From contig CADAHQ010000007.1 of assembly GCA_902787715.1 (NCBI GenBank), positions 12,255-76,254 of the forward strand: a DNA stretch of 64,000 nt, in the 5' to 3' direction. The first letter of the stretch is position 1. Every line of letters begins with the position of its first letter. The position numbers were made by a program, and so were the translations under genes. Of this stretch, positions 1,330 to 17,844 are shown piece after piece. The notes under the pieces are model-generated. The model did not search any database. It was given only the letters and a program-made list of their open reading frames with translations, and was not told the origin of the DNA. The DNA comes from an uncultured Lachnospiraceae bacterium (GTDB lineage Bacteria; Bacillota; Clostridia; Lachnospirales; Lachnospiraceae).

Positions 1330-1869
1330 CTAAATAGCTTTGCAGAACTCCTCAATCTCCTGCCTTCTCGGTTCGACATTCTCCTTATACTCGATGGCGG
1401 TGAGCCCGAGGTGGCCGGTGCAGGCGATGTGAAGATGCCCGTAAAAATGCTCTATGCTTTGAATGATTCTGTCACATTCATGCATGCCGGGACCGGTACG
1501 CAGAGCGACAGCATAGCCTCTCTTCCCCTCGCGGATCGTCGCATGGGGTTCGTGGGTATCGCACCACGGCGTGCGTCTGTCGATAAATGCCTTGAATTGG
1601 CCGGGAATGTCCGCCCAATATGAAGGCGCCACCGAAACAATCACATCCGCCGCGTCCAATTCATCCATAATCCGATTGACGTCATCATCCATGACGCACC
1701 GGGCTGTTTTGTGGCAGGTCCGGCACCCCTTGCAAAACTCAAACGAATAGTCATCGATACAGATGCTTTTGGTATCATATCTCGCGGAGAGCTGCCCTTC
1801 TGCGATGCGAACAATCTCCGCCGTAGCGCCGGTTCTGACCGGGCTGCAATTAATGATTAGCGCCTTCAA
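1330..1869 (-). CDS. Flavodoxin-fold NAD(P)H-dependent oxidoreductase
   Basis: A 179-residue protein with the flavodoxin-like FMN phosphate-binding loop at the N-terminus (NCSPVRTGATAEI, residues 7-19). It has a cysteine pair region CKGCRTCHKTARC (about residues 46-58) of the kind seen in iron-sulfur flavoproteins and related FMN reductases. The second flavin-contacting loop is SVAPSYWADIPGQFKAFIDR. It probably binds FMN and reduces small molecules or quinones, or acts as an electron carrier. The C-terminal half is short for the iron-sulfur flavoprotein family, so a cluster is uncertain. It is separated from the next minus-strand gene by about 30 bp. Confidence 0.82.
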   Translation of the reverse strand: MKALIINCSPVRTGATAEIVRIAEGQLSARYDTKSICIDDYSFEFCKGCRTCHKTARCVMDDDVNRIMDELDAADVIVSVAPSYWADIPGQFKAFIDRRTPWCDTHEPHATIREGKRGYAVALRTGPGMHECDRIIQSIEHFYGHLHIACTGHLGLTAIEYKENVEPRRQEIEEFCKAI

Positions 1870-1899
1870 TCTCTTCCTCCGAATTCCTGCCGCAGCACC

Positions 1900-2223
1900 T
1901 TATTTAAATACAAATCCGCAGATTGCCATTCCTATAACGACCAGGGTGGAAAAGGTCCAATTTATGTACCAGTCCATGTATTTAAAGCCGGACGGCTCCA
2001 CGTCGTCCCCTGCATTTTCCGTGTTTATGGCAATACCGAACTGAAAGCCCACCTTCGCAAATGCGATGCTGAAGCAATTTATAAAAGAAATCAGGATTCC
2101 GATGGCAAAAAAATCCATGTTGCCGGCGCCGGAAAACAGCAGAACAAACAAAGCGACAGCCAAAACCACGTTAATGATAAGCAGGATTTTCTGGCCCGTC
2201 TTAAGTTCTTTAAACCACTTCAT
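1900..2223 (-). CDS. Small membrane protein of unknown function
   Basis: About 107 residues with three hydrophobic segments: LLIINVVLAVALFVLLFSG, FAIGILISFINCFSIAFA, and a last one near the C-terminus (TLVVIGMAICGFVF). It is a predicted integral membrane protein. The ATG at 2223 is chosen because a GGGGGG tract lies 7 bp upstream. An in-frame ATG at 2238 would add five residues. No family is recognised. It lies between the flavodoxin gene and another small exported protein, and may share a transcript with them. Confidence 0.65.
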   Translation of the reverse strand: MKWFKELKTGQKILLIINVVLAVALFVLLFSGAGNMDFFAIGILISFINCFSIAFAKVGFQFGIAINTENAGDDVEPSGFKYMDWYINWTFSTLVVIGMAICGFVFK

Positions 2224-2270
2224 TTTGTGTCCCCCCATGGTTCTCCCCGAGTCCGAATATTTGGAATTGA

Positions 2271-2543
2271 TTACTTTGCTCCGGGAAATGCTATTCTACG
2301 TAATTCATTGATTGATTTGCGGTTGGTCGGAAACCAGAACACCGATTTCTTTATTGTTACGATACCGTCTGTCGGATTCGAAATATCGATGCCCTTCCAC
2401 TCGACACACGTGTACATGACCGCGGTATACACCGTAGAGCCGCCGTCCTCCAAGATGTCAACCTTGTACGGGACGAACAAAACTCCCACCAGGATCAGCG
2501 CCGCCAACACAACACACACGACAAATACTCTCTTCTTTTTCAT
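2271..2543 (-). CDS. Small exported protein, unknown
   Basis: About 90 residues with an N-terminal hydrophobic segment preceded by KKKR (VFVVCVVLAALILVGVLF), followed by a polar extracellular part. It is a probable membrane-anchored or secreted protein. No lipobox is obvious. The ATG at 2543 follows a GGGAG. An upstream in-frame GTG at 2552 is an alternative start with AGGAG in front. The C-terminal half (DILEDGGSTVYTAVMYTCVEW) resembles small uncharacterised Lachnospiraceae membrane proteins, but no function can be given. Confidence 0.6.
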   Translation of the reverse strand: MKKKRVFVVCVVLAALILVGVLFVPYKVDILEDGGSTVYTAVMYTCVEWKGIDISNPTDGIVTIKKSVFWFPTNRKSINELRRIAFPGAK

Positions 2544-2562
2544 TTCTCCCACACTCCTTTCA

Positions 2563-3909
2563 CTATTCGGTTAGTATTTCAAGAGCGGTCTCCATGACCT
2601 TGTCACGACCCTCCTTGAAATCGTCTATGGTGACGTCAACCCTGACGTCCGGCGAGAAGCCCTTGTTGTAAATGTCCTCGCCGTTTTGCGCGATGCAGCG
2701 CCTTGTGCAGATGCGGTAGTTGCCGCCGCTTTCCAGGAATACAAAGTACGGCTGGCCGGACGTTCCCGCAGTGTTGCTACCGACGAACGTCGCCTTTGTG
2801 TGCATCTTCATAACGTCCACAAAATCTTCCGCAGCCGACACCGTATCTCCGTTCATAAGCACCGCAACGGGGCCTTCCAGAAGGCCCGGCGCAATGTTCT
2901 CCGCTATATTAGTCTCTTTTTGAAAGGAAATGTGTCGGCACATCCGGTAGGATTTGAGGCTGTCCTCGTCCCACTGCATCTTGGCTGCATCCTCCGGCGA
3001 GACATTTTTAAAATCCTCCCGGAACAGCCCCCACGCCTTGTAAGTGGGCTCATACACCTGCGTCTCCGCTGCACAGCTTGTAAACTGCCCGGAGATAAAC
3101 ATGGCTGCAACGGCATCGGCGTTACCGCTGTTTCCGCCGCCGTTTCCGCGGACGTCGATGATGTAGCCTTTCGCCTTGCGAAGCTCCTCAATCTTCCCGT
3201 AGATTTTGCCGGGAACGGAATCATCCATGAAGGTGGTGATTGTGATTACCGCGATGCCGCTCTCCGCGATTTTTATTTTGACGTTGTCCTCGTTAAGAAT
3301 CATCTCGCCGGGCGCAGCTTTCGCCTTCGGCATCCCGGAATCGCACCATTTGATTTTGGTTGCATCCACCCGGCGCATGCTCACGTCGAAGGTCTTTCCG
3401 TCCTTCTCAAACGTAAGCACCGCCTTGCTGTCAGCCCTTCCGTACAAAAGCTCGATCATAACCGCCTTGCTGCAGGCGTTTTCGTTGGCATGCCAGATGT
3501 AGGGGTAGCATTTGCCGCGAATATACTCTGCGATGTCAACGCCGTCGAACTTCGTAAGGACGCCGAACATCGGAATCGTGTCCCTGTACTCCTCGGCCAT
3601 GCTGAGCACGACATACGAGCCGCCGACCTGCGCAAGATACACCGGAAGCATCGAAAAATACTCCGGGCTCTGCATGAATTCCATGGGGAACGTGACTCCC
3701 GTGTGCCCGTCCCCGAGCAGCGCCACGAAACGGGCAAGCTCGCGGTAGTAATCAAATACATCTTCGGTCGCAAGCACCCGCGGCAGGGCCTTTTTGTACT
3801 CCGCGTCCCAGTCGATGTCCACCTTGTCCCAGTAGACAAAATTGTACTCCGCGTCCTTCCAAATCCGCGACAACTCGTAGATCTTCTGTTCATCCGATAT
3901 GGTTCTCAT
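2563..3909 (-). CDS. S41-family peptidase
   Basis: A 448-residue C-terminal-processing-type protease. The N-terminal helical part (residues 1-80) resembles the TSP-type cap (ISDEQKIYELSRIWKDAEYNF). The S41 core holds IDVRGNGGGNSGNADA at about residue 250 and NGDTVSAAEDF at about residue 355, whose Ser is the expected nucleophile, with downstream TSGQP and the FSPDV loop. No signal peptide is present, so it appears cytoplasmic, unlike many S41 enzymes. The ATG at 3909 is preferred (GGGGAG 8 bp upstream) over an upstream in-frame ATG at 3930. It is the last gene of a run that starts with the esterase at 6956. The substrate is unknown. Confidence 0.88.
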   Translation of the reverse strand: MRTISDEQKIYELSRIWKDAEYNFVYWDKVDIDWDAEYKKALPRVLATEDVFDYYRELARFVALLGDGHTGVTFPMEFMQSPEYFSMLPVYLAQVGGSYVVLSMAEEYRDTIPMFGVLTKFDGVDIAEYIRGKCYPYIWHANENACSKAVMIELLYGRADSKAVLTFEKDGKTFDVSMRRVDATKIKWCDSGMPKAKAAPGEMILNEDNVKIKIAESGIAVITITTFMDDSVPGKIYGKIEELRKAKGYIIDVRGNGGGNSGNADAVAAMFISGQFTSCAAETQVYEPTYKAWGLFREDFKNVSPEDAAKMQWDEDSLKSYRMCRHISFQKETNIAENIAPGLLEGPVAVLMNGDTVSAAEDFVDVMKMHTKATFVGSNTAGTSGQPYFVFLESGGNYRICTRRCIAQNGEDIYNKGFSPDVRVDVTIDDFKEGRDKVMETALEILTE

Positions 3910-7005: not shown

Positions 7006-7054
7006 GCCCCTCCTGACAAGGAAAAAGGGGCCTGTCGCGAAAACGACAAACCCC
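7006..7054 (-). terminator. Two overlapping Rho-independent terminators after the peptide-export operon
   Basis: Read on the minus strand, a hairpin GGGG-TTTGTCG / CGACAGG-CCCC (7054-7027) is followed by TTTTT. Its right arm CCCC then starts a second hairpin, closed by GGGGC at 7006 and followed by TTTTTT. The two structures are mutually exclusive but both end in U-tracts, giving tight termination of the HlyD-exporter transcript before the esterase gene. Confidence 0.8.
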
Positions 7055-7098
7055 TTCCCCTGCTACACCGTGAAGCACATGTATCCTTGAAGCGAAGT

Positions 7099-7875
7099 TT
7101 AGCGAATTTTTTCCCAGACGTAAGGCAAAACCTTCATCCGGTCGGTAATAATTTTCACCGTGCACACCAGGCCGCTCTTGAGCGGAACGGTCTTGTTCTT
7201 GCTGTCGGTAAGCTCTGTTGCGTCAAATTCCACCCACGCCGAGCAATACGACGTCCCGCTCTGGGGATCGAACTCCACCGCGTCCGAAATCTTGCGGACG
7301 CGCCCCGTAACGGTCCCGTATTCACTGGCGGGAAATGCCACAAACTCGAGGCTGACCTCCTGCCCTTCCGTTACCTTTCCGATGTCACCGCCGGTGACGT
7401 AAATCTGGGCCTGGAAGGATTTCTGCGGCTTCGGGAAGAGATACCCGACGCGGCTGTCGGCCTGCAGAACAGTGCCTACCCCGCCGTCCAAAGCGGTATA
7501 AAAGTAACCGTCCCCTTTTGCCTTGATGACCAGCTGCTCGTCCTCAAGCTCCTCATCCTTCGGGGTCTTGTCGCCGCCCACGACCTTCAGCTCATACAGG
7601 ACGGTTCCATCCCACACGAACTGTCCGTCGGCGACGTTGCATTTGGTGACTTTTGCGTTGTATGCGCAGGTAACCTCAGTGACATCGCTTGTGTAAGAGA
7701 TCGTGCCGCCGGCCTCCGCGACGATGTCAATCTCGGTGGTTGCCATCCAGATGATGCTTATCACAATTATTGCAAGCAGAACATAAACAAACCATACAAT
7801 GGCCGGATTCGGCTTCTTCTCGTAGATTTCCGTGCTTTCCGACAGGTCCTTCATATCGATTATGACCGGTTTCAT
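7099..7875 (-). CDS. HlyD-like accessory protein of peptide exporter
   Basis: A 258-residue membrane-fusion-like protein with one N-terminal transmembrane segment (IVWFVYVLLAIIVISIIW, residues 22-39). It is followed by a lipoyl/barrel-sandwich domain (AEAGGTISYTSDVTEVTCAYNAKV) and a beta-barrel part with GDIGKVTEGQEVSLEF. It has no long coiled coil, so it is shorter than the 400-plus-residue LcnD/HlyD proteins. It would sit beside the C39 ABC exporter in the cytoplasmic membrane and help thread peptides through the envelope. The ATG overlaps the exporter stop (ATGA, 7872-7875) and a GGAGG lies 10 bp upstream. It is the last gene of the peptide operon. Confidence 0.85.
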   Translation of the reverse strand: MKPVIIDMKDLSESTEIYEKKPNPAIVWFVYVLLAIIVISIIWMATTEIDIVAEAGGTISYTSDVTEVTCAYNAKVTKCNVADGQFVWDGTVLYELKVVGGDKTPKDEELEDEQLVIKAKGDGYFYTALDGGVGTVLQADSRVGYLFPKPQKSFQAQIYVTGGDIGKVTEGQEVSLEFVAFPASEYGTVTGRVRKISDAVEFDPQSGTSYCSAWVEFDATELTDSKNKTVPLKSGLVCTVKIITDRMKVLPYVWEKIR

Positions 7876-10085
7876 ACCGTTGCCACCTCCGTTCCGCACT
7901 CATCCAAAGACTGCTGTTTCACAAGCTCGGCGTATCGGCCGTTTTGGGCAATCAGCTCTCTGTGGGTACCCTCTTCGATGATTCTGCCCTTCTTCATGAC
8001 GAAGATCTTGTCGCAGTTCTTAATAGTGCTTAAGCGATGGGCGATGAAGATTGTCGTGACGTCCTTGGCGTACTCGTGAATGGTGGCATCCAGCGCCCGC
8101 TCCGTGATGGAATCCAGGTTGCTGGTGGCCTCGTCGAGAATCAGGATGTCGGGCTTTTTGAGCATCGCTCTGGCGATGGCAAGGCGCTGTCTCTGACCGC
8201 CGGAAAGGTTGGCACCGTTCTCCTCCAGCATCGTGTCGTAACGAAGCGGGAGTTCGTTGATGAAATCGTGGGCCTGCGCCATCTTGGTGGCCTCAACCAC
8301 GTCTTCCATCTTCACATTGTCCATGCCGAGCGTGAGGTTATCGTAAATGCTGCCGCTGAAGAGGAAAGTCTCCTGAGGAATGTATGCAATCCGGTCGCGA
8401 AGCGCCTCAATCCGGATGTCTTCGATGTTCCGGTCGCCGATCAGAATCTCGCCCTTCTCAGGGGCATACAGATGCAACAGAAGCTTGACAAGGGTCGTCT
8501 TGCCGGAACCGCTCTCCCCGACAAATGCAACGTTTCCCCCGCGGGGTATCCGCAGTGAAATGTCTTCCAAAACAAGCGCTCTCGTACCATACCGGAAATC
8601 CATGTTGCGGATGGTGATGTCGTCCTTGAGATTCTCCGGCACAACCTTGCGGAGCTCCTTGTCGGTTTTCTCGGCTTCCAGGTCGAGAATTTGCCCCAGA
8701 CGTTCCGCTGCCACAACCGCCGTCTGCATCTGCGGCTGAAGGTTGATCAGGTTCTTGATGGGGTCGAGGAAGTAAACCAACAGGGCGTTGAAAGTAATCA
8801 AACCGCCGATGGTCATCTCGCCGTGAATCACGCTGAGACCGCCGACCCACAGAATAATCACGCCGCCGATGAGCTCCACGGTACCCTTCAGACCTTCCTG
8901 GGCATTGCCCACCCACGTCAGCGAGAAGATGCTCTTTAAGAGCCGTACAAACTTCGACTCCATCTCCTGCTTGGCTTTGCGCTCCGCGTTAAATGCCTTC
9001 ACCGTCTGGATTCCGTTGAGGGATTCCACCATGTAGGAAGTCAGCTGTGCGCTGTTCTCCATGACGGTCTCATTCAGCTTGCGGTACCGGTTTTTGAAGG
9101 CCAGCACAATGATACCGTAGAGAACCAGCATAAAGACCGCGATCAGAAAAAGCTTTGTATTTTGCGAACAGAGAATGATTGCGCCAAAGACTGCCATCAA
9201 CGTATCAACCATGATGGTCAGGGTTGCCCCCGAGATGGCATCCCGCACATTACCGGCATCGGAGAAACGGGAGATAATCTCACCGACTTTTCTCGTTCCG
9301 AAGAAGTTCATGGGAAGGTCCATGACATGCCGGTAATAGCCTAAAAGCAGGGAAATGTCCAGCTTCTGGCTCAGATACAGCATCATCTGCGAACGCACGA
9401 TACCAAGAGCCACCCGGAAGAGGCTTAAGAGGATCATGCCCACAGACAATGTCGTCAATGTTTTCGTAAGGCTGTTCGGCAGTACCGAGTCAATCAACGC
9501 CTTGTAGTAAAAGGCGCCCAGCATGCCGAGGAACGTCAGGATCAGGGACGCAAAAAAGATGTGCAGAATCAGATTCTTCTGCGGCAGGAGAAGCGAGAAG
9601 AACCGGCTGAAAAGGCCTTTGGTCTCCACGCCCTTCTTGAAGGATGCATTTTTCGTGAGGAGAATCAAAACGCCGGTCCACTGATACTCCGGGTTTTTCC
9701 CCTCGGCCGCCGTCTCCCCGCAAAATTCTTCCGGCTTCAGCTTCACAATCCCCTTGCCGGGGTCGGAGATTATAATTTCTTTTTTGGTAATCTTCTGCAC
9801 CACCACATAGTGCAGCACTTCTCCCTTGACGATCATATGTGCGATGCAGGGCAAAGGAAACTCGGAGAAGAGGTCCTCCTTGTCTCCCTGGACGCATTTG
9901 GCAGTGAAGCCCAGGCGCTCCGCAGCAAGAACCATACCGTAGGCATTGGTTCCCTGGGTGTCCGTTCCCGCAGCTTCACGAATTTTCGTAATTCCGATTT
10001 TATACCCATTTTGACGGCATATTGTGGCCAGGCATGCCGCACCGCAATCCGTCATGTCGTACTGTTTCACACAATAGTATTTCAT
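7872..10085 (-). CDS. Peptidase-containing (C39) ABC exporter for double-glycine peptides
   Basis: A 737-residue PCAT transporter that cleaves double-glycine leaders and exports the core peptide. The C39 peptidase domain (residues 1-130) has the catalytic Cys in QYDMTDCGAACLA, the His in VLHYVVVQK and the Asp in ISDPGKG. The transmembrane domain spans about 160-430. The nucleotide-binding domain has Walker A GESGSGKTT, signature LSGGQRQR, Walker B ILILDEATS and the switch His in IAHRLS. All catalytic residues look intact. It follows four genes whose products carry matching GG leaders, after an intercistronic hairpin. The ATG at 10085 is chosen by the usual start of the C39 domain. A GTG at 10100 is possible. 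Confidence 0.95.
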   Translation of the reverse strand: MKYYCVKQYDMTDCGAACLATICRQNGYKIGITKIREAAGTDTQGTNAYGMVLAAERLGFTAKCVQGDKEDLFSEFPLPCIAHMIVKGEVLHYVVVQKITKKEIIISDPGKGIVKLKPEEFCGETAAEGKNPEYQWTGVLILLTKNASFKKGVETKGLFSRFFSLLLPQKNLILHIFFASLILTFLGMLGAFYYKALIDSVLPNSLTKTLTTLSVGMILLSLFRVALGIVRSQMMLYLSQKLDISLLLGYYRHVMDLPMNFFGTRKVGEIISRFSDAGNVRDAISGATLTIMVDTLMAVFGAIILCSQNTKLFLIAVFMLVLYGIIVLAFKNRYRKLNETVMENSAQLTSYMVESLNGIQTVKAFNAERKAKQEMESKFVRLLKSIFSLTWVGNAQEGLKGTVELIGGVIILWVGGLSVIHGEMTIGGLITFNALLVYFLDPIKNLINLQPQMQTAVVAAERLGQILDLEAEKTDKELRKVVPENLKDDITIRNMDFRYGTRALVLEDISLRIPRGGNVAFVGESGSGKTTLVKLLLHLYAPEKGEILIGDRNIEDIRIEALRDRIAYIPQETFLFSGSIYDNLTLGMDNVKMEDVVEATKMAQAHDFINELPLRYDTMLEENGANLSGGQRQRLAIARAMLKKPDILILDEATSNLDSITERALDATIHEYAKDVTTIFIAHRLSTIKNCDKIFVMKKGRIIEEGTHRELIAQNGRYAELVKQQSLDECGTEVATV

Positions 10086-10121
10086 TCTGTATTTCCACAC
10101 GCTTTCTTTCGGTCTTAATGT

Positions 10122-10160
10122 ATGCGGGCCAAGTTATGCCGAAGCAAACTCAGCCCGCAT
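10122..10160 (-). other. Intercistronic hairpin between peptide genes and exporter
   Basis: Perfect 8-bp arms ATGCGGGC / GCCCGCAT enclose 23 bases between the last peptide stop (10201) and the exporter start (10085). No U-tract follows on the minus strand, so it is more likely a processing site or partial attenuator than a full terminator. It could keep exporter levels below peptide levels. Confidence 0.55.
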
Positions 10161-10200
10161 AGAGTCAATCCAAATATACTCGCTTAAGGGGCGTCAGGTA

Positions 10201-10425
10201 TTAGACGTGAACGTATCTGTACTCGCTGCCGCCGTTGATGGACTTGATGCCGCTGCCGCTGGCAACCCACCGCGTACCTACAGTCTTTCTGCCGTCATAC
10301 GTCGTATTAACGATCTGTCCGGTAGCATCAAGGATGTAACGGGTATACATATAAACATAAACGGGAACATAGTATCCACCACCGTTTACAGTCATCATTT
10401 CTTTCTTGTTCAAAGTCTTTAACAT
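10201..10425 (-). CDS. Double-glycine leader peptide, copy 1 (bacteriocin or pheromone precursor)
   Basis: A 74-residue precursor. The leader MLKTLNKKEMMTVNGG (residues 1-16) has the pattern of C39-cleaved leaders: hydrophobics at positions -12, -7 and -4, and GG at -2/-1. The predicted core is 58 residues, starts GYYVPVY, is rich in Tyr, Val and Thr, and has the conserved motif WVASGSGIKSI near the C-terminus. It has no Cys and no long glycine zipper. There is a strong AAAGGAG 8 bp before the start. It is the last of four related peptide genes and closest to the exporter. Together with copy 4 it forms the WVASGSGI subtype. The role (antimicrobial, signal or both) cannot be told from sequence. 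Confidence 0.85.
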   Translation of the reverse strand: MLKTLNKKEMMTVNGGGYYVPVYVYMYTRYILDATGQIVNTTYDGRKTVGTRWVASGSGIKSINGGSEYRYVHV

Positions 10426-10538
10426 AGTATTTTCTCCTTTACTCTTATAGTTTTTTGCTTTGGTCTTATCGACGTGAAATATTTAAAACACTTTCCTTTT
10501 GGGAATTAACCTACATAGTCTTCTTGTTTTTCCACTTA

Positions 10539-10778
10539 TCAAACGTCGATGCGAATGACGCCGGGAAGCCAAAAGTCATGGTATATAGCAGTTATACCGC
10601 TGTCGCTGGCTACCTGCTGCGTTCCCAAATAATCTTGTTTAATTACTTTTCTTCCTGTGCCGACCTTTCTACCTTTATGAAAGTATTCGACATGTCTTAA
10701 ATAACGGTTGTATTCCGGAACGTAGTAGAAACCGCCGTTAACGGTCATCATCTCGTTCTGATTCAATGTCTTGAACAT
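10539..10778 (-). CDS. Double-glycine leader peptide, copy 2
   Basis: A 79-residue precursor with leader MFKTLNQNEMMTVNGG and a 63-residue core that begins FYYVPEY and carries QVASDSGITAI. The core is basic (HKGRKVGTGRKV) and ends in a hydrophobic tail (WLPGVIRIDV). It is cysteine-free. There is an AAAGGAG about 10 bp upstream of the ATG. With copy 3 it forms the QVASDSGI subtype, so the four genes group as two plus two, which would fit a two-peptide arrangement. A 113-bp AT-rich gap separates it from copy 1 and shows no hairpin. Confidence 0.85.
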   Translation of the reverse strand: MFKTLNQNEMMTVNGGFYYVPEYNRYLRHVEYFHKGRKVGTGRKVIKQDYLGTQQVASDSGITAIYHDFWLPGVIRIDV

Positions 10779-10820
10779 GATGTTTTTTCTCCTTTTTCAA
10801 TTACACTATCGTCGGTTTTC

Positions 10821-11054
10821 CTATACGTTCACATAAGTATAGAAGAAGTGATCATTATAGAATGCCTTTATGCCACTATCGCTTGCTACCTGTCGTTCAT
10901 ACAAGAATATAGTGCTGACAAGTTCAACCTCTTGATCAACTATCTCGCCGTTATGTCTATACAGTATCACTCTCCAATAACGTCTGTATACCGGAACGTT
11001 GTAGAATCCGCCGTTAATGTTTAGCATCTCTTTTTCAGTCATTACTCTGAACAT
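10821..11054 (-). CDS. Double-glycine leader peptide, copy 3
   Basis: A 77-residue precursor with the most diverged leader (MFRVMTEKEMLNINGG), still ending in GG with hydrophobics at the expected positions. The core starts FYNVPVY and contains RQVASDSGIKAF. The middle (HNGEIVDQEVELV) is more acidic than in copy 2, so the two QVASDSGI cores have opposite charge tendencies. The ribosome site is weaker (GGTAGG) than for the other three, so it is perhaps the least translated. It lies in the same transcript as its neighbours, with intergenic gaps of about 42 and 49 bp. Confidence 0.82.
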   Translation of the reverse strand: MFRVMTEKEMLNINGGFYNVPVYRRYWRVILYRHNGEIVDQEVELVSTIFLYERQVASDSGIKAFYNDHFFYTYVNV

Positions 11055-11103
11055 GAGTTTATACCTACCATTGCAGAATCAATCACCGTGAGAACGATGT
11101 TGC

Positions 11104-11298
11104 TTACCAATAGATGTCCTCATATCTCGTAATGGAAGTGATGCCGCTGCCGCTGGCAACCCACTCGGTGCCAACGTACGTCGTGGAGGATCCGCGAAGG
11201 ACGCCCTGAACGTAGTAGCGCTTGCAAAGGTAAACGGGAACATAGTAACCGCCGCCGTTAACGCTCATCATCTCGTTCTGATTCAATGTCTTTAACAT
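11104..11298 (-). CDS. Double-glycine leader peptide, copy 4 (promoter-proximal)
   Basis: The shortest precursor, 64 residues. Leader MLKTLNQNEMMSVNGG, then a 48-residue core starting GYYVPVYLCKRYYV with the single Cys found in the four cores, and carrying WVASGSGITSI before a C-terminal DIYW. The ATG at 11298 is chosen because AAGGAG lies 10 bp upstream and the other leaders start at the same point; an upstream start at 11352 would add 18 unrelated residues. It is first in the operon, about 120 bp after the mapped-by-eye promoter. Its small size and first position make it the best pheromone candidate, but that is inference. Confidence 0.85.
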   Translation of the reverse strand: MLKTLNQNEMMSVNGGGYYVPVYLCKRYYVQGVLRGSSTTYVGTEWVASGSGITSITRYEDIYW

Positions 11299-11392
11299 GA
11301 TACGTTTTCTCCTTTTTTTTGATTGATTTACCCAAATGCCTGCGCATGACAATTGGATATAGTTTGGCTATTTGTTAACAAAACCACCCCAA

Positions 11393-11417
11393 CAGGATAA
11401 AAGATTTTTTCATCCTG
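11393..11417 (-). other. 5'-end hairpin of the peptide operon transcript
   Basis: Arms CAGGAT / ATCCTG enclose an A/T-rich loop. The predicted transcription start from the -10 box at 11425-11430 falls at about 11418, so the hairpin would sit at the extreme 5' end of the mRNA, a position typical of stabilising caps. Confidence 0.45.
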
Positions 11418-11424
11418 CAAAATC

Positions 11425-11495
11425 ATTATAACGATGCACATTTGGGGAAGTCAATCACTTATGGATGAACGACATAATTTTTTGATGAACGACAT
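11425..11495 (-). promoter_or_regulatory. Peptide operon promoter with twin 12-bp activator boxes
   Basis: On the minus strand, -35 TTGACT (11454-11449) and -10 TATAAT (11430-11425) are separated by 18 bp. Upstream lie two identical direct repeats ATGTCGTTCATC (11495-11484 and 11475-11464), with starts 20 bp apart and the nearer ending 9 bp before the -35. Two direct half-sites about two helical turns apart, next to the -35, are typical of LytTR-type regulators such as AgrA, PlnC or ComE. The same layout recurs at 12834-12903. The adjacent LytTR gene is the obvious candidate ligand. Confidence 0.8.
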
Positions 11496-11499
11496 ATTT

Positions 11500-12219
11500 T
11501 TAGTTATTTCTGTCGATTGTGGCCTTCTTGATGAACGAAAAATAGGCCTCTTTGACGGCGTAGAAGTATTTTCTGCCGATGGGCACGATTGTGCCGTTTG
11601 TCATGATAAGACCATCAGTATTCACTTTTTTGACATACTGAAGGTTTGCAAGATAGGACTTGTGAGTCCGAATGATGGTCGTCCCTTTGGTCATTCCCTC
11701 GATTGCTTTGATGCTCTCGTATCCGGGAATCTCTTCCTGCTCGAAGCAGATGTTGACATAGTTGCCCCGGGCCTGCACGGAGATGATCCGGTCAAGCCGC
11801 ACGTGGTCTATGCCCTGGAACGTCCGGTAAGAAATATCGATATTTTCCTGGTGCTCGCGAAGAACGGTTTTCAGGCAGGTCTCCACACCGATCTTGTCCA
11901 GCGGCTTCTCCAAAAAAGCCAGCGTCTTCAGATCGATGGTGTCCCAGCGGAGCTCCTTATGGCTTGTCACAAAAACAATACGCCAGAACAAATCATTCCA
12001 ATGAAGCTTTGCAAGGACCTCAAGGCCGTCAACTCCGGGCATTTCAATATCAAGGAACAGAAGGTGAATCTTCTCTCCCTGATAGGCAAGCACATCCTCG
12101 CCGGAGGTGAACACAACGAACCCGCACTCCTGGTTTTGCGCATCAAAAAAAGCGCTGCAGAGCGATTTTATCTGCGCGCGGTACATTTCTTCGTCATCGC
12201 AAATGCCAATGAAGATCAT
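11500..12219 (-). CDS. LytTR-family response regulator (AgrA/PlnC type)
   Basis: A 239-residue response regulator. The receiver domain (1-120) has acidic pocket residues CDDEE, the phosphorylated Asp in LLFLDIEMPGVDG (about residue 58), and conserved Thr and Lys equivalents (VFVTSH, LEKPL). The C-terminal LytTR DNA-binding domain (about 135-235) contains VRLDRIISVQARGNYVN and TIIRTHKSYLANL. It should bind tandem direct repeats next to the -35 box, matching the twin boxes found at two promoters here. The ATG at 12219 follows GGAGGGG. A longer frame to 12294 lacks a ribosome site. Its partner is probably the GHKL kinase at 12915-14204. It lies between the two peptide transcription units. Confidence 0.92.
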   Translation of the reverse strand: MIFIGICDDEEMYRAQIKSLCSAFFDAQNQECGFVVFTSGEDVLAYQGEKIHLLFLDIEMPGVDGLEVLAKLHWNDLFWRIVFVTSHKELRWDTIDLKTLAFLEKPLDKIGVETCLKTVLREHQENIDISYRTFQGIDHVRLDRIISVQARGNYVNICFEQEEIPGYESIKAIEGMTKGTTIIRTHKSYLANLQYVKKVNTDGLIMTNGTIVPIGRKYFYAVKEAYFSFIKKATIDRNN

Positions 12220-12301
12220 TGTCCCCTCCGAGCTCAGAGTATATGAATTTTTGCTATATATGCCGCAGAATCGGTCCAACCGATATCTTCCCAAAATGCC
12301 C

Positions 12302-12337
12302 TAGGGCCATAGACATGGGTAGTGTCTTATGGCCCTA
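12302..12337. repeat. Near-perfect inverted repeat between the regulator and the immunity-like gene
   Basis: Arms TAGGGCCATAGACA and TGTCTTATGGCCCTA pair with a single bulge around a 7-base loop. No U-tract follows on either strand, so it is not a classical terminator. It lies in the 260-bp gap between the 73-aa membrane protein and the LytTR gene and may act as a processing site or partial terminator. The rest of that gap shows nothing codable. Confidence 0.5.
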
Positions 12338-12479
12338 ATATAGAAAGCGCGTTGTCCGGACTTCCATAGATTGTAATTGTTTGCGTCGAGCCTTAATCGG
12401 AACTGGTAAAACGTCCTAAAAGAACGCCACCGGACTATACAGCTATTTCTCCGATTACCTTTGCCCGATCACCATGGCT

Positions 12480-12701
12480 TCATTTGTCAGATTCATAGCG
12501 GTTATTCTTCAGCCCACCATGTTTCTGCTCTTTTAATTCCATCACAAAACTGACTGATGCAATAAATGCTCCTATTGCAGTCAAAACACAGGCTGCCAGG
12601 ACTTTGTTGAACGGGGATTGATTCATCACAAATAAAACAATCTCGACCACAACAAGCACCGCCAAGATAGCTATGAGGCAACGCCTTACCGTCTTATTCA
12701 T
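12480..12701 (-). CDS. Small two-helix membrane protein, candidate immunity protein
   Basis: A 73-residue protein with two hydrophobic segments (CLIAILAVLVVVEIVLFVM and VLAACVLTAIGAFIASVSFV), a positively charged N-terminus and a charged C-terminal tail. Small two-helix proteins directly after peptide genes often confer self-protection in class II bacteriocin loci. The start overlaps the stop of the 36-codon peptide (ATGA, 12698-12701), so the two are translationally coupled and share the twin-box promoter at 12834-12903. There is no sequence similarity to a known immunity family that I recognise. The role is inferred from size, topology and position. Confidence 0.6.
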   Translation of the reverse strand: MNKTVRRCLIAILAVLVVVEIVLFVMNQSPFNKVLAACVLTAIGAFIASVSFVMELKEQKHGGLKNNRYESDK

Positions 12702-12808
12702 CCTTTTACCCCTGTTCTTGTAAAACCCGCTAAGTGGTTATTCCCGAAAAGACGGCGAAGCCACTCCCAAAAATCGTACTCATACAAAATGATGTCATTG
12801 TCACTCAT
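12698..12808 (-). CDS. 36-residue aromatic-rich peptide without a GG leader
   Basis: A short peptide starting MSDNDIILYEYDFWEWLRRL, acidic at the N-terminus and with a basic, glycine-containing C-terminal half (FGNNHLAGFTRTGVKG). The ATG at 12808 has AAGGGGG about 11 bp upstream and lies about 20 bp after the predicted transcription start. A 90-codon reading of the same frame would begin upstream of the promoter boxes and is rejected. There is no double-glycine motif and no signal peptide, so if exported it would have to be leaderless or use another route. It is coupled to the two-helix protein. Candidates are a leaderless bacteriocin, an intracellular signal, or a leader ORF for translational coupling. 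Confidence 0.55.
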   Translation of the reverse strand: MSDNDIILYEYDFWEWLRRLFGNNHLAGFTRTGVKG

Positions 12809-12833
12809 GTTTGCTGCACCCCCTTCTGATTCC

Positions 12834-12903
12834 ATTATGAGAACAATCTTCGGAAAATGCAACCACTTTTGGATGAACGACATATTTTTTTGATGAACGA
12901 CAT
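12834..12903 (-). promoter_or_regulatory. Second promoter with the same twin activator boxes
   Basis: On the minus strand, -35 TTGCAT (12862-12857) and -10 CATAAT (12839-12834) are 17 bp apart. Two copies of ATGTCGTTCATC lie at 12903-12892 and 12883-12872, again 20 bp apart with the nearer ending 9 bp before the -35. The bases next to the boxes also match the first promoter (CATAAGTGA against CAAAAGTGG). The weak -35 fits an activator-dependent promoter. It drives the 36-residue peptide, the two-helix protein and possibly the regulator. Confidence 0.78.
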
Positions 12904-12914
12904 ATTTTCGGGGT

Positions 12915-14204
12915 TTACAACACAATTTCGGCGGTAAAAATGCCGTTTTCTTCCTGAATTGTGAACTCACCGTTCGCCTTCGCGACGGTGTTCCGGATGT
13001 TCATAAGACCGAATCCATGGTTCTGAAAATCACTTTTTGTGGTCCCGTGACGCTTCTTCGACCCTTCCGAAATTCGACACGTGTTGGAGACGCGAATGCA
13101 GATTCGCTCGCGGAAGGAACCGCAGGAGATCGAAATCTTCCGTTCTCTCCCCTCCTCCACCTGCTCCGCCGCTTCCACGGCATTGCTTAAGAGGTTTGAA
13201 AAGATGACGCAGAGGTCGAACGCCTCGATGTCCGTATCCCCGAGGAGGCCGCCGTCCCATTTCCATTGAATGTTGCCTGCATTTGCCTTTTGATACCACT
13301 CGCTGATGATGGCATCCACGACGCCGATGCCGGTAAATTTCTGAATTTCCAACTTCCGCGTTTCCGCGCGCATCCGCTCCACATAGGATTTCAGCTGCTC
13401 CATATCGTTGGTTTGTATGCATTGCTCAAGGGCCGTGAGATGAGCGCTCACGTCGTGGCGGAACCGGCGAATCTTCTGATCGTTCTCGACAATCTCCCGG
13501 ATATGCGTTTCCTGACGTTTTAAACACATTTGATAATAATCGTTTTCCATCTTGTAGCGAATCGCTTTTTTCTCAATGCCGGACTGCCATAAAACGAGGG
13601 CGACAAAGACAATCCCCACAATCACGAGGGAAACTGAAAACGCGTCGTTCCATTCGAGAAGCTCGGCTTCTCCTTTCATCATGCCCTGGGATACGCCGAT
13701 GATAACAAAGAGGCACACGGACCCGAGAAGCGCCAGCATATATTGCGGAATGCTGAAGGTTACAGGCTCGCGCTCCTCGCGAAGTCGCTTGTCGAAGAGG
13801 AAGAATATGAAAAAGAGAGCCGGGAAAACACATTCCGCGACCACCCCTCGCCAGGAAGATTCCATGAACTCGGAATAGGGCATGTTGGCTGCAAATGCCC
13901 AAAGATATGTGACAAGAATCGCAATGAAGCCCGAAGCGAAAAATACAATCGGAAAAACAAGCAGAACACGTATACGCGATTTAATCACAAGGATCATAAA
14001 TGCAGACAGAACGACAAGATGGATTCCGAATCTGTCATAGTAAAGCACTTGGAAATGTTGGAGTGCGATAACTACCGGGCACAGAGCGACCGGTACGCAA
14101 ATGTGCCACAGAACGTTCTTGCGGAACGGCACACTGAGGATCCACCGATAAGCGATATAATATGTCAAAAAATTAATAAGATAATCCGCCACCCACGTAA
14201 CCAT
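12915..14204 (-). CDS. GHKL sensor histidine kinase (AgrC/ComD/BlpH type)
   Basis: A 429-residue polytopic kinase. About six or seven transmembrane helices fill residues 1-210. A dimerisation helix carries the HPK10-type His motif RRFRHDVSAHL (His at about residue 248). The GHKL ATPase part has the N-box FSNLLSNAVEAAE and the G-box NHGFGLMNIRN, and lacks the longer G1/F boxes of ordinary kinases. This type senses secreted peptides at the membrane and phosphorylates a LytTR regulator. It lies upstream of the twin-box promoter and has its own promoter without the boxes, so the receptor appears not to be under the same loop. The start has GAGAGG 7 bp upstream. Confidence 0.92.
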   Translation of the reverse strand: MVTWVADYLINFLTYYIAYRWILSVPFRKNVLWHICVPVALCPVVIALQHFQVLYYDRFGIHLVVLSAFMILVIKSRIRVLLVFPIVFFASGFIAILVTYLWAFAANMPYSEFMESSWRGVVAECVFPALFFIFFLFDKRLREEREPVTFSIPQYMLALLGSVCLFVIIGVSQGMMKGEAELLEWNDAFSVSLVIVGIVFVALVLWQSGIEKKAIRYKMENDYYQMCLKRQETHIREIVENDQKIRRFRHDVSAHLTALEQCIQTNDMEQLKSYVERMRAETRKLEIQKFTGIGVVDAIISEWYQKANAGNIQWKWDGGLLGDTDIEAFDLCVIFSNLLSNAVEAAEQVEEGRERKISISCGSFRERICIRVSNTCRISEGSKKRHGTTKSDFQNHGFGLMNIRNTVAKANGEFTIQEENGIFTAEIVL

Positions 14205-14288
14205 GATTAACCTCTCTCAGAAGGGGGAAAACCCGTCCCCGGATAACAGTTTGTCCTACGAAATAACTACTTCAAAAATCATGTAACA

Positions 14289-14316
14289 TTATTACACATT
14301 TTCGGCAAACCGTCAA
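14289..14316 (-). promoter_or_regulatory. Promoter of the sensor kinase gene
   Basis: On the minus strand, -35 TTGACG (14316-14311) and -10 TAATAA (14294-14289) have a 16-bp spacer. A small palindrome TGTAA-N5-TTACA (14282-14296) overlaps the -10. No copy of the ATGTCGTTCATC box is present. The remaining sequence from 14205 to 14383 shows no gene. Confidence 0.6.
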
Positions 14317-17283: not shown

Positions 17284-17844
17284 TCAGTCACCGATGGAAT
17301 GATACAACTCCATCATGGTTTGAATTTCCTTTCGGTTCTCCTCGATGTAGGTGCGGACAAAGGCCTTCTCCTCCTTCGACAGTTCCAGCTCCTCAAACTT
17401 CTTCTGATCGATTTCCCCCCGTTCGGTCAACTCAATCAAATACGCCCGGATTCCGGATCCGCTGTAGTCGCAAATCATGAGGCCGAAGTCTGTAGACCGC
17501 ATCTTCCGCCAGGCCATAAGACCGCAGGTTGTTTTCAGCTCTTCCTCCGAATTGAAAACAATTCTGTTGCTTCCGGTTCGCTGGATGTGGATCTCCCCGT
17601 AAAAGCGATTCCACTTCCAGGTCTTCGCCTCCACGGTGTAAACACCGCTCTCAAACTTGTACCACCGGCCGTCGTATTCCCCCTTCAAGAAAGGCTTCAT
17701 GGTCTTCTCGGCGCACGCATGATGCACCAGCAGATAAACGCCGGCCAGCACGAACGCGATAAATGCAACAAAAGCAAGAACATGGAGTATGCTGTTCTCA
17801 TTTTTCCCGTCATCCTGCCGAGTATCGTCCGATTCTTTTCTCAT
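17284..17844 (-). CDS. Membrane-anchored hypothetical protein
   Basis: A 186-residue protein with a polar N-terminus, one transmembrane helix (VLAFVAFIAFVLAGVYLLV, about residues 26-44) and a soluble domain of about 135 residues rich in charged residues (WKWNRFYGEIHIQRTGSNRIVF, IELTERGEIDQKKFEELELSKEEKAFVRTY). It looks like a beta-rich domain followed by a helical tail. No family is recognised. The start follows GAGGGGG closely, and the gene lies 9 bp after the 108-aa gene upstream, so the two form an operon. Confidence 0.7.
   Translation of the reverse strand: MRKESDDTRQDDGKNENSILHVLAFVAFIAFVLAGVYLLVHHACAEKTMKPFLKGEYDGRWYKFESGVYTVEAKTWKWNRFYGEIHIQRTGSNRIVFNSEEELKTTCGLMAWRKMRSTDFGLMICDYSGSGIRAYLIELTERGEIDQKKFEELELSKEEKAFVRTYIEENRKEIQTMMELYHSIGD

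Follow-up and report, generated by a model that had tools for sequence, protein, structure and literature searches.

A candidate leaderless autoinducer, a predicted LytTR-type regulon and a new family of double-glycine peptides in Lachnospiraceae

A 64,000-nucleotide stretch of contig CADAHQ010000007.1, from an uncultured Lachnospiraceae bacterium and hereafter designated as the window, carries a minus-strand locus in which a GHKL sensor kinase and a LytTR response regulator are associated with a short tryptophan-rich open reading frame (ORF), termed sp, four double-glycine (GG) peptides, P1 to P4, and a C39-peptidase ABC exporter. We read this locus as an autoinducing two-component signalling system, in which sp would serve as the autoinducer and the GG peptides would be exported as one product among those of a larger regulon, and assign this reading a probability of about 0.6. 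Lachnospiraceae are a major family of the gut and rumen, and to our knowledge their cell-to-cell signalling has been little described outside Agr. With a recognisable signal candidate, a defined promoter box and a countable regulon, the present system is directly testable. Its gene order and overall anatomy, the conservation of sp, the distribution of the boxes and the linkage of the peptides to the exporter are established at the level of sequence.

Organization of the locus

In the direction of transcription, the minus strand encodes the GHKL kinase, box A, sp, a two-span membrane protein of 73 amino acids (aa) and the LytTR regulator, followed by box B, P4, P3, P2, P1, the C39 exporter and an HlyD-like protein. 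A first-pass annotation had already described four GG-leader peptides, a complete C39 exporter, an HlyD-like protein, a LytTR regulator and a GHKL kinase, all of which were borne out and lie where it placed them. Its description of the peptides stood as well, but the sp ORF and the direct-repeat promoters with their wider regulon had been overlooked.

The kinase (12915..14204, 429 aa) is of the HPK10/AgrC-like type, with a multi-span N-terminal sensor half containing the hydrophobic segments and a C-terminal HATPase_c_5 domain (Pfam, E 4.3e-23); its match to the AgrC model is weak (6.4e-8) and falls far under the cut-off of that model. The regulator (11500..12219) associates a receiver domain (Response_reg, 3e-12) with a LytTR domain (3.2e-15), its start being set by homology at ATG 12219 in place of the TTG at 12294 given by the ORF list. 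A HATPase_c_5 kinase with a multi-span sensor and a REC-LytTR regulator thus occur at one locus, as expected of an HPK10 kinase and LytTR pair.

Comparisons were made with 22 genomes of the same genus, 12 bearing the kinase and 10 without it, and with 397 genomes drawn from the family. Across the genus loci compared, the gene order is conserved except in L033 and L040. Identity of the kinase to its 11 relatives reaches 73-83% in the catalytic half and 45-59% in the sensor half. In one of these genomes (G018, locus L030, 4687-5966), a frame change splits the kinase reading frame, reflecting either an assembly error or decay.

The sp ORF as partner of the kinase

The sp ORF (12698..12808) encodes 36 aa (MSDNDIILYEYDFWEWLRRLFGNNHLAGFTRTGVKG) behind the ribosome-binding site (RBS) AAGGGGGTG, has no GG leader and is our candidate autoinducer. 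Its consensus in the genus loci is EYDFWEWLCHILGI, with a box directly before each copy. It usually lies just after the kinase; in locus L041 it is found after the regulator and before the peptides, as a separate unit away from the LytTR gene. A search at E <= 1 gave matches in 10 of the 22 genus genomes, a list that includes chance matches, and genome G012 was added by eye. On this basis, all but one of the 12 kinase genomes carry sp, the exception (G017) having its kinase cut by a contig end, and it occurs in all 10 exporter genomes of the genus (nine by search, G012 by eye), as well as in G011. A divergent form, MFGESIISAQLDWWELLWILLGGGK and a near twin, was found in L034 and L035.

Synonymous differences in sp reach 0.64 per site versus 0.19 for non-synonymous ones (11 loci, all pairs pooled), a ratio indicating that the ORF is under purifying selection. 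The product is acidic in 13 loci around the genus, with charges from -0.5 to -5.4. The residue following WL or WF is R in the window and in L041, C in eight loci and K in L084.

Two loci separate sp from the GG peptides of the window. In G011, a genome 98% complete, locus L084 retains the kinase, box, sp and LytTR regulator, and genome searches revealed neither a GG peptide (E <= 0.01) nor the exporter (E <= 1e-150). In L186, from genome G191 of another genus, an sp-like 15-mer (MIASIDWSWLWKLFG) is located between a kinase of 31% identity and two different GG peptides, which resemble class II bacteriocins at scores under Pfam cut-offs. There, the box reads GTCGTTCATG twice, with a period of 20, before the sp-like ORF, and the contig carries an exporter 70% identical over the 481 aa present on it. 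Since sp is kept in both G011 and L186, it is the constant partner of the kinase, whose GG peptides seem to be a cargo that can be swapped. Downstream of the kinase, sp and regulator genes, L084 also encodes a 370-aa protein (8005-9117) that is radical-SAM/SPASM-like by its cysteine motif only, no family search having been made.

Direct-repeat boxes and the regulon

Both transcription units of the locus are preceded by a LytTR-type box with the structure GTCGTTCATC-N10-GTCGTTCATC. Box A (12872..12901), before sp, is followed by a -35 element TTGCAT (12862-12857) and a -10 element CATAAT (12839-12834), and box B (11464..11493), upstream of the peptide operon, by TTGACT (11454-11449) and TATAAT (11430-11425). 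The two match the pattern without mismatch, and no further box was found in the window; shuffled sequences gave none. With at most one mismatch, this genome contains 10 sites, and none when the box is read backwards; over the 22 genomes, the backwards-read control produced a single match (G003). By hand count, sites with 0-1 mismatch number 53 in the 12 kinase genomes versus one in the 10 kinase-less genomes. That single site is a perfect box in L161 (G006), a genome with no kinase match at 1e-40, and may be a relic or belong to another regulator. Six listed matches with three mismatches look like chance or decayed sites.

A -35-like TTG was found exactly 9 bp downstream in 50 of the 52 distinct boxes of the fetched loci. 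In a LytTR paper (PMC6193735), the repeats are 9-mers, separated mostly by 12 bp and located 4-11 bp upstream of the -35 element with a bias to 10 bp; the spacing between box and -35 element seen here is thus, by sequence, the geometry of LytTR-activated promoters.

The boxes extend well beyond the locus and tend to precede exported or membrane-associated products. Among 30 non-locus boxes, several of them orthologous (two sites near contig ends and L161 were left out), the first ORF within 600 nucleotides (nt) had an N-terminal hydrophobic stretch in 23 cases, as compared with 332 of 2418 random positions. The targets include a CAP-domain protein, a Listeria-Bacteroides-repeat protein, lipoproteins and small two-span proteins, and no Pfam family was found for six of the 10 target proteins searched. 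In L040 (G015), a box precedes an extra GG peptide located directly before a 1434-aa secreted VWA/CBM2 protein. In L155 (G007, 1704-3531), the box is followed by a 71-aa cysteine-rich peptide and a 498-aa radical-SAM protein, which probably form a cluster for a modified peptide controlled by this regulator. At L150 and L152, which are among the eight further boxes of the window's own genome, no convincing target follows.

A new family of double-glycine peptides

P1 (10201..10425, 74 aa), P2 (10539..10778, 79 aa), P3 (10821..11054, 77 aa) and P4 (11104..11298, 64 aa) are the four peptides of the window; AGGAG ribosome-binding sites precede P1, P2 and P4, and the site of P3 is weak. The start of P4 was placed at 11298, where an RBS is present, the listed ORF start at 11352 lying too far upstream. 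As the first-pass annotation had claimed, alignment confirms that the four share a leader of 16 residues ending in GG, a common core start and a late motif: P1 and P4 read GYYVPVY...WVASGSGI and P3 reads FYNVPVY...QVASDSGI, with residues Y18, V20, P21, Y23, V56-A57-S58 and S60-G61-I62 (P2 numbering) invariant. Removal of the leader leaves a core of 63 aa in P2 and of 48 aa in P4.

We gathered 26 members of this family, with one to five peptides per locus and cores of 34-63 aa. The grouping of the four peptides into two plus two, suggested earlier, extends to all 26 members through a pairing between the first core residue and the residue before the late Val: Gly at position 1 goes with W in 5 of 5 members and any other residue with non-W in 21 of 21 (p = 1.5e-5), while Phe is accompanied by Q in 18 of 18 and the pairs V-C, Y-R and I-M occur once each. 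Leaders are constrained, with non-synonymous differences per site of 0.07-0.15 versus synonymous differences of 0.50-0.67 in four gap-free pairs, and the cores change faster. Slow leaders with fast cores suggest that the GG peptides act as effectors and not as the signal, a bacteriocin-like role being the most likely.

Similarity to known families is limited to the leaders and remains marginal. TIGR01847 recognises the leader of P2 at 16.5 bits (cut-off 15.7), P1 scores 15.6 and P3 and P4 are lower; matches to PF10439 (P2 and P4 only) and TIGR03949 are weak and under cut-off. None of the 26 cores matched an NCBIfam bacteriocin model, P1-P4 had no match in PHROGs, and a search of PDB sequences with the cores gave a best E-value of only 0.32. 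The cores, reported earlier as not recognised, therefore fit no bacteriocin family in NCBIfam or PHROGs, these searches and that of PDB sequences having returned no clear match to a characterised bacteriocin family, and within the libraries used the peptide family is established as new. In searches of open-licence literature, none of the titles or abstract openings returned dealt with these peptides or with short Trp-rich ORFs next to LytTR kinases, which is weak evidence of novelty.

The peptide profile, built on an alignment in which three window rows lack the first Met, matches 10 of the 22 genus genomes at E <= 0.01. The exporter (E <= 1e-150) is present in exactly these 10 genomes (Fisher p = 1.5e-6), with at least 81% identity, so that the co-occurrence of peptides and C39 exporters proposed earlier as a check holds elsewhere in the genus. 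A looser cut-off of E <= 0.1 adds an eleventh genome, G004, at 0.06. A wide spread of the family was considered and rejected: over the 397 family genomes, strong matches are confined to G000 and G018, both of the same genus, and four weak matches elsewhere have E-values from 9.9e-5 to 0.009. A scan of genome contigs provided eight loci, recorded by title as Lachnospiraceae (five), Lachnoclostridium (two) and Acetatifactor (one), and water-buffalo forestomach compartments are named for three of the eight. Carriage by phages or by plasmids and other mobile elements was also rejected, as none of 25 pattern-matching stretches in viral contigs was related and a plasmid tblastn search with P2 returned nine weak chance matches, in Roseomonas only.

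Predicted fold of the cores

An AlphaFold2 model of the P2 core, produced from the 26-row alignment of family peptides, consists of three long antiparallel beta strands (residues 2-18, 21-40 and 49-62) and has a predicted local distance difference test score (pLDDT) of 96.9 and a predicted template modelling score (pTM) of 0.70. The shorter, divergent core of L037 was modelled with four short strands (pLDDT 92.3, pTM 0.67). Based on these models, the cores are likely to be small antiparallel beta-sheets. In the predicted P2 hairpin, residue 1 and the residue before the late Val would face each other, a pairing read from strand limits (i + j about 39-40); the covariation of G with W and of F with Q fits this hairpin and supports it independently. 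The variable middle of the cores would correspond to the hairpin tip, which would explain the changes in core length. If confirmed as stand-alone beta-sheets, the GG cores would represent an unusual shape for exported GG peptides.

sp-like ORFs beyond the genus

The kinase profile matches 189 of the 397 family genomes, and 68 kinase loci outside the genus, taken from the top of a longer match list, were searched for sp-like ORFs. To qualify, an ORF had to start from a strong RBS, lie no more than 700 nt past the kinase on its coding strand, span 13-40 codons and encode a Trp and an aromatic content of 20% or higher. This rule was satisfied in 11 of 28 loci in a first set (antisense 1/28; shuffled 1.8%) and in 12 of 40 further loci (antisense 0/40; shuffled 1.9%), giving 23 of 68 loci as compared with 1 of 68 in antisense. 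Random segments of the 28 loci gave 8.3%, a value that includes true hits as the loci are the same, and random window segments gave none.

Examples of these peptides are MSTYSWEFWEWLKQFFK, MAVPYGWIDIFLEWLFG, MHFFYANIFDDIWKKLFG and MEAYNSSEWWYEIWKWIFNH, and their charges in other genera range from -6.5 to +2.5. The 19 undoubted hits represent 18 genera, and three loci in which an sp-like ORF is present though missed by the rule (L191, L219 and L247) raise this number to 20, by hand count of genus labels. Upstream of many sp-like ORFs are direct repeats with a period of 20-22 (combined p = 1.9e-10 for 23 ORFs, post hoc); of the 24 peptides listed, 23 could be located for this test, including the doubtful L203, on the strand opposite the kinase. 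Because 45 of the 68 loci have no sp-like ORF by the rule, other kinases of this group probably use other ligands.

Two of these loci deserve mention. In L189 (G275), one kinase is followed by three near-identical sp-like ORFs (at 1038, 1828 and 3660; MVFYICDLTDWLKWILGIHK and two variants), each with its own similar upstream region. In L185 (G052, 7589-7845), a related kinase precedes two tiny cysteine-rich paralogues, MRYIRRPENVYVVGECYNCPCNKNCTNNH and MKYLVKPADKYVYGYCYSCRCNSKCTCNGGSSYFF.

Proposed mechanism and alternative explanations

We propose that sp, which would be synthesised with no leader to be cleaved off, arrives at the cell surface by some route and is detected there by the GHKL kinase through its multi-span half. 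The phosphorylated LytTR regulator would then bind the GTCGTTCATC-N10-GTCGTTCATC boxes, 9 bp upstream of the -35 element, and raise transcription of sp itself, creating a positive feedback, and that of a regulon including the GG-peptide operon along with genes for further secreted proteins and for small membrane proteins. Once cut after GG, the GG peptides would leave the cell through the C39 transporter, aided by the HlyD-like protein, and adopt a small antiparallel beta-sheet fold. Within this scheme, autoinduction through LytTR is likely, as is export of the GG cores by the C39 transporter, and we favour, with some reserve, sp as the extracellular ligand of the kinase. An antibacterial activity of the GG cores is put forward tentatively, at a little under even odds. 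More broadly, leaderless Trp-rich peptides of 14-36 aa, encoded next to HPK10 kinases and driven by LytTR boxes across Lachnospiraceae, could represent a class of autoinducers not yet described, which would depend on neither a GG leader nor AgrB and which in this genus would control a regulon including the new beta-sheet GG family; we give this generalisation slightly less than even odds.

Several points weigh against the autoinducer reading. The sp product has no export signal or known exporter, and, if it works from outside the cell, the manner in which it leaves the cell with no leader becomes a question in itself. In its aromatic core, sp varies less between species than many pheromones do, and its C-terminus is extended in the window. 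In G011, the contig ends just past the kinase start, leaving the far side unseen, and in the 16-kb locus L033, an exporter, GG peptides and boxes of divergent sequence (1-2 mismatches) occur with no match to kinase, regulator or sp. Outside the genus, the lack of an sp-like ORF in most related-kinase loci counts on the same side, as do four doubtful rule hits (L201, L214, L244 and L255). For the promoters, a -10-like hexamer (at least 4/6) lies 16-19 bp beyond the TTG in 47 of 52 boxes, a count with no shuffled control, and the orthology of several regulon sites means that the 23 hydrophobic first ORFs among 30 are not all independent. As for the output, no immunity gene of the kind expected next to class II bacteriocin genes was seen among the P1-P4 ORFs, and the beta fold was predicted from an alignment of 26 sequences; fold searches matched nothing in PDB or BFVD at E <= 0.001.

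The strongest alternative concerns the role of the GG peptides, which may be surface or colonisation factors, or secondary signals in a secreted-protein regulon, rather than antibacterial products. We regard this as possible, if less probable than a bacteriocin-like role. It accords with the many secreted proteins of the regulon (CAP, VWA/CBM2, Listeria-Bacteroides-repeat proteins and lipoproteins), with the position of the extra GG peptide of G015 right before its VWA/CBM2 protein, with the lack of immunity genes interleaved with the peptides and with the predicted beta-sheet fold. Yet a slow leader, a fast core and a varying number of paralogues are typical of bacteriocins, and the GG peptides of L186 look class II bacteriocin-like, though under Pfam cut-offs. 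The multi-component bacteriocin proposed by the first-pass annotation is a possibility, weakened by the lack of an immunity gene among the peptide genes and by models made of beta-sheets and not helices.

A second alternative, which we consider unlikely, is that sp is no signal at all and acts as a small leaderless peptide with antimicrobial or toxic activity, or as a small membrane-bound regulator of the kinase. It is indeed short, aromatic and box-driven, and has no known export route; the two-span membrane protein whose start codon overlaps the sp stop in the window is possibly an immunity protein, and sp-like charges in other genera range from -6.5 to +2.5. However, sp is acidic in the 13 loci around the genus, in contrast to cationic leaderless bacteriocins, and it is tied to the kinase, not to exporters.

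Slightly less probable still is a pheromone role for one or more of the GG peptides, in the manner of Com/Blp/Pln systems, with sp as an accessory protein. GG peptides, C39 exporter, GHKL kinase and LytTR regulator form the classical set, the peptide operon has its own box, and the kinase is more variable in its sensor half than in its catalytic half. Against this, the GG cores diverge fast and vary from one to five copies and from 34 to 63 aa, L084 maintains kinase, sp, box and regulator in a genome with no GG-peptide or exporter match, and in L186 the sp-like ORF stands beside different GG peptides. Because of this fast divergence, variable copy number and retention of sp by a kinase without GG peptides, the GG peptides are unlikely to be the signal. 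In the earlier interpretation, the recognition of a peptide-signalling gene set with an unrecognised exported GG family linked to a C39 exporter is retained, and its option of the GG peptides as a signal is not supported. That this is simply a conventional class IIb bacteriocin locus is very improbable: the leaders do match TIGR03949 and TIGR01847 weakly, and P2 exceeds the TIGR01847 cut-off, but no core matches an NCBIfam bacteriocin model, the model is beta and not helical, and sp and the regulon fall outside the class IIb description.

Relation to known signalling systems

The closest resemblance in gene content is with the Com, Blp and Pln class II bacteriocin systems, which, as generally understood, share the gene set, GG leaders and LytTR direct-repeat promoters. 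Here, in contrast, the candidate inducer is short and Trp-rich and has no GG leader, the cores belong to a new beta-modelled family and the regulon extends to a wide range of secreted proteins; as regards ComC/BlpC systems, in which the inducer carries a GG leader, GG peptides are present at the locus and the constant partner of the kinase is an ORF with no such leader. Agr (AgrBDCA), as it is usually described, has in common an AgrC-like GHKL kinase, a LytTR regulator, an adjoining small peptide gene and autoinduction from its own promoter, but sp is shorter than AgrD and lacks an invariant Cys. No AgrB match was found in the 12 kinase-bearing genus genomes, and PF04647 (AgrB) matches two of the 22 genomes, exceeding the cut-off in G004 only, neither of which has this kinase. 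A role for sp as an AgrD was rejected, as the kinase genomes gave no AgrB match and the Cys needed for a (thio)lactone is not conserved.

The ComS/XIP and SHP peptides of streptococci are likewise short, leaderless or nearly so, and aromatic (DWW-like) or hydrophobic; they act inside the cell on Rgg/ComR, whereas the partner here is a membrane GHKL kinase, and the genes beside sp in the window, where the neighbourhood was inspected with no genome-wide Rgg search, are the kinase, the two-span protein and the LytTR regulator. HdrRM/BrsRM, as described in PMC6193735, show comparable LytTR direct repeats near the -35 element, positive autoregulation and bacteriocin targets, but involve a membrane inhibitor and 9-bp repeats mostly 12 bp apart, in place of a GHKL kinase and 10-bp repeats 10 bp apart. 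We class the locus as a variant form of peptide signalling through HPK10 kinases and LytTR regulators, outside both Agr and ComC/BlpC.

Exporter and other features of the window

The exporter (7872..10100, 742 aa) has Peptidase_C39 (3.1e-34), ABC_membrane and ABC_tran domains, and scores 694.8 bits with TIGR01193 (cut-off 523.85). The expected Cys, His and Asp residues, Walker A and LSGGQ are intact, so that domains over cut-off and motifs both agree with a TIGR01193 C39 exporter. The HlyD-like accessory protein (7099..7899, 266 aa) is short for its family, matching HlyD_3 at 5.4e-7 and TIGR01843 at 104.5 bits, under the cut-off of 208.65. In L034 and L035 (10570-11655), the HlyD-like match falls into two parts about 300 bp apart, as would result from an insertion or a longer variant.

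As to modification enzymes, the earlier statement that the window encodes no radical SAM enzyme agrees with the absence of CxxxCxxC from the listed non-overlapping ORFs of at least 120 aa, LanM and YcaO not having been searched window-wide. The 73-aa two-span protein (12480..12701), whose start codon overlaps the sp stop, matches no Pfam family at cut-off; it is immunity-like or accessory and is the sole immunity candidate at the locus. Two-span membrane proteins of 58-73 aa (VEIVLF...F.K) that resemble it by eye are found behind boxes in L169 and L174, and the two-span proteins behind boxes are possibly immunity or accessory proteins. Farther along the window, a 186-aa membrane protein (17284-17844) is similar by eye to box-associated proteins in L147 of this genome (2653-3174) and in L166 of G009 (from 14023).

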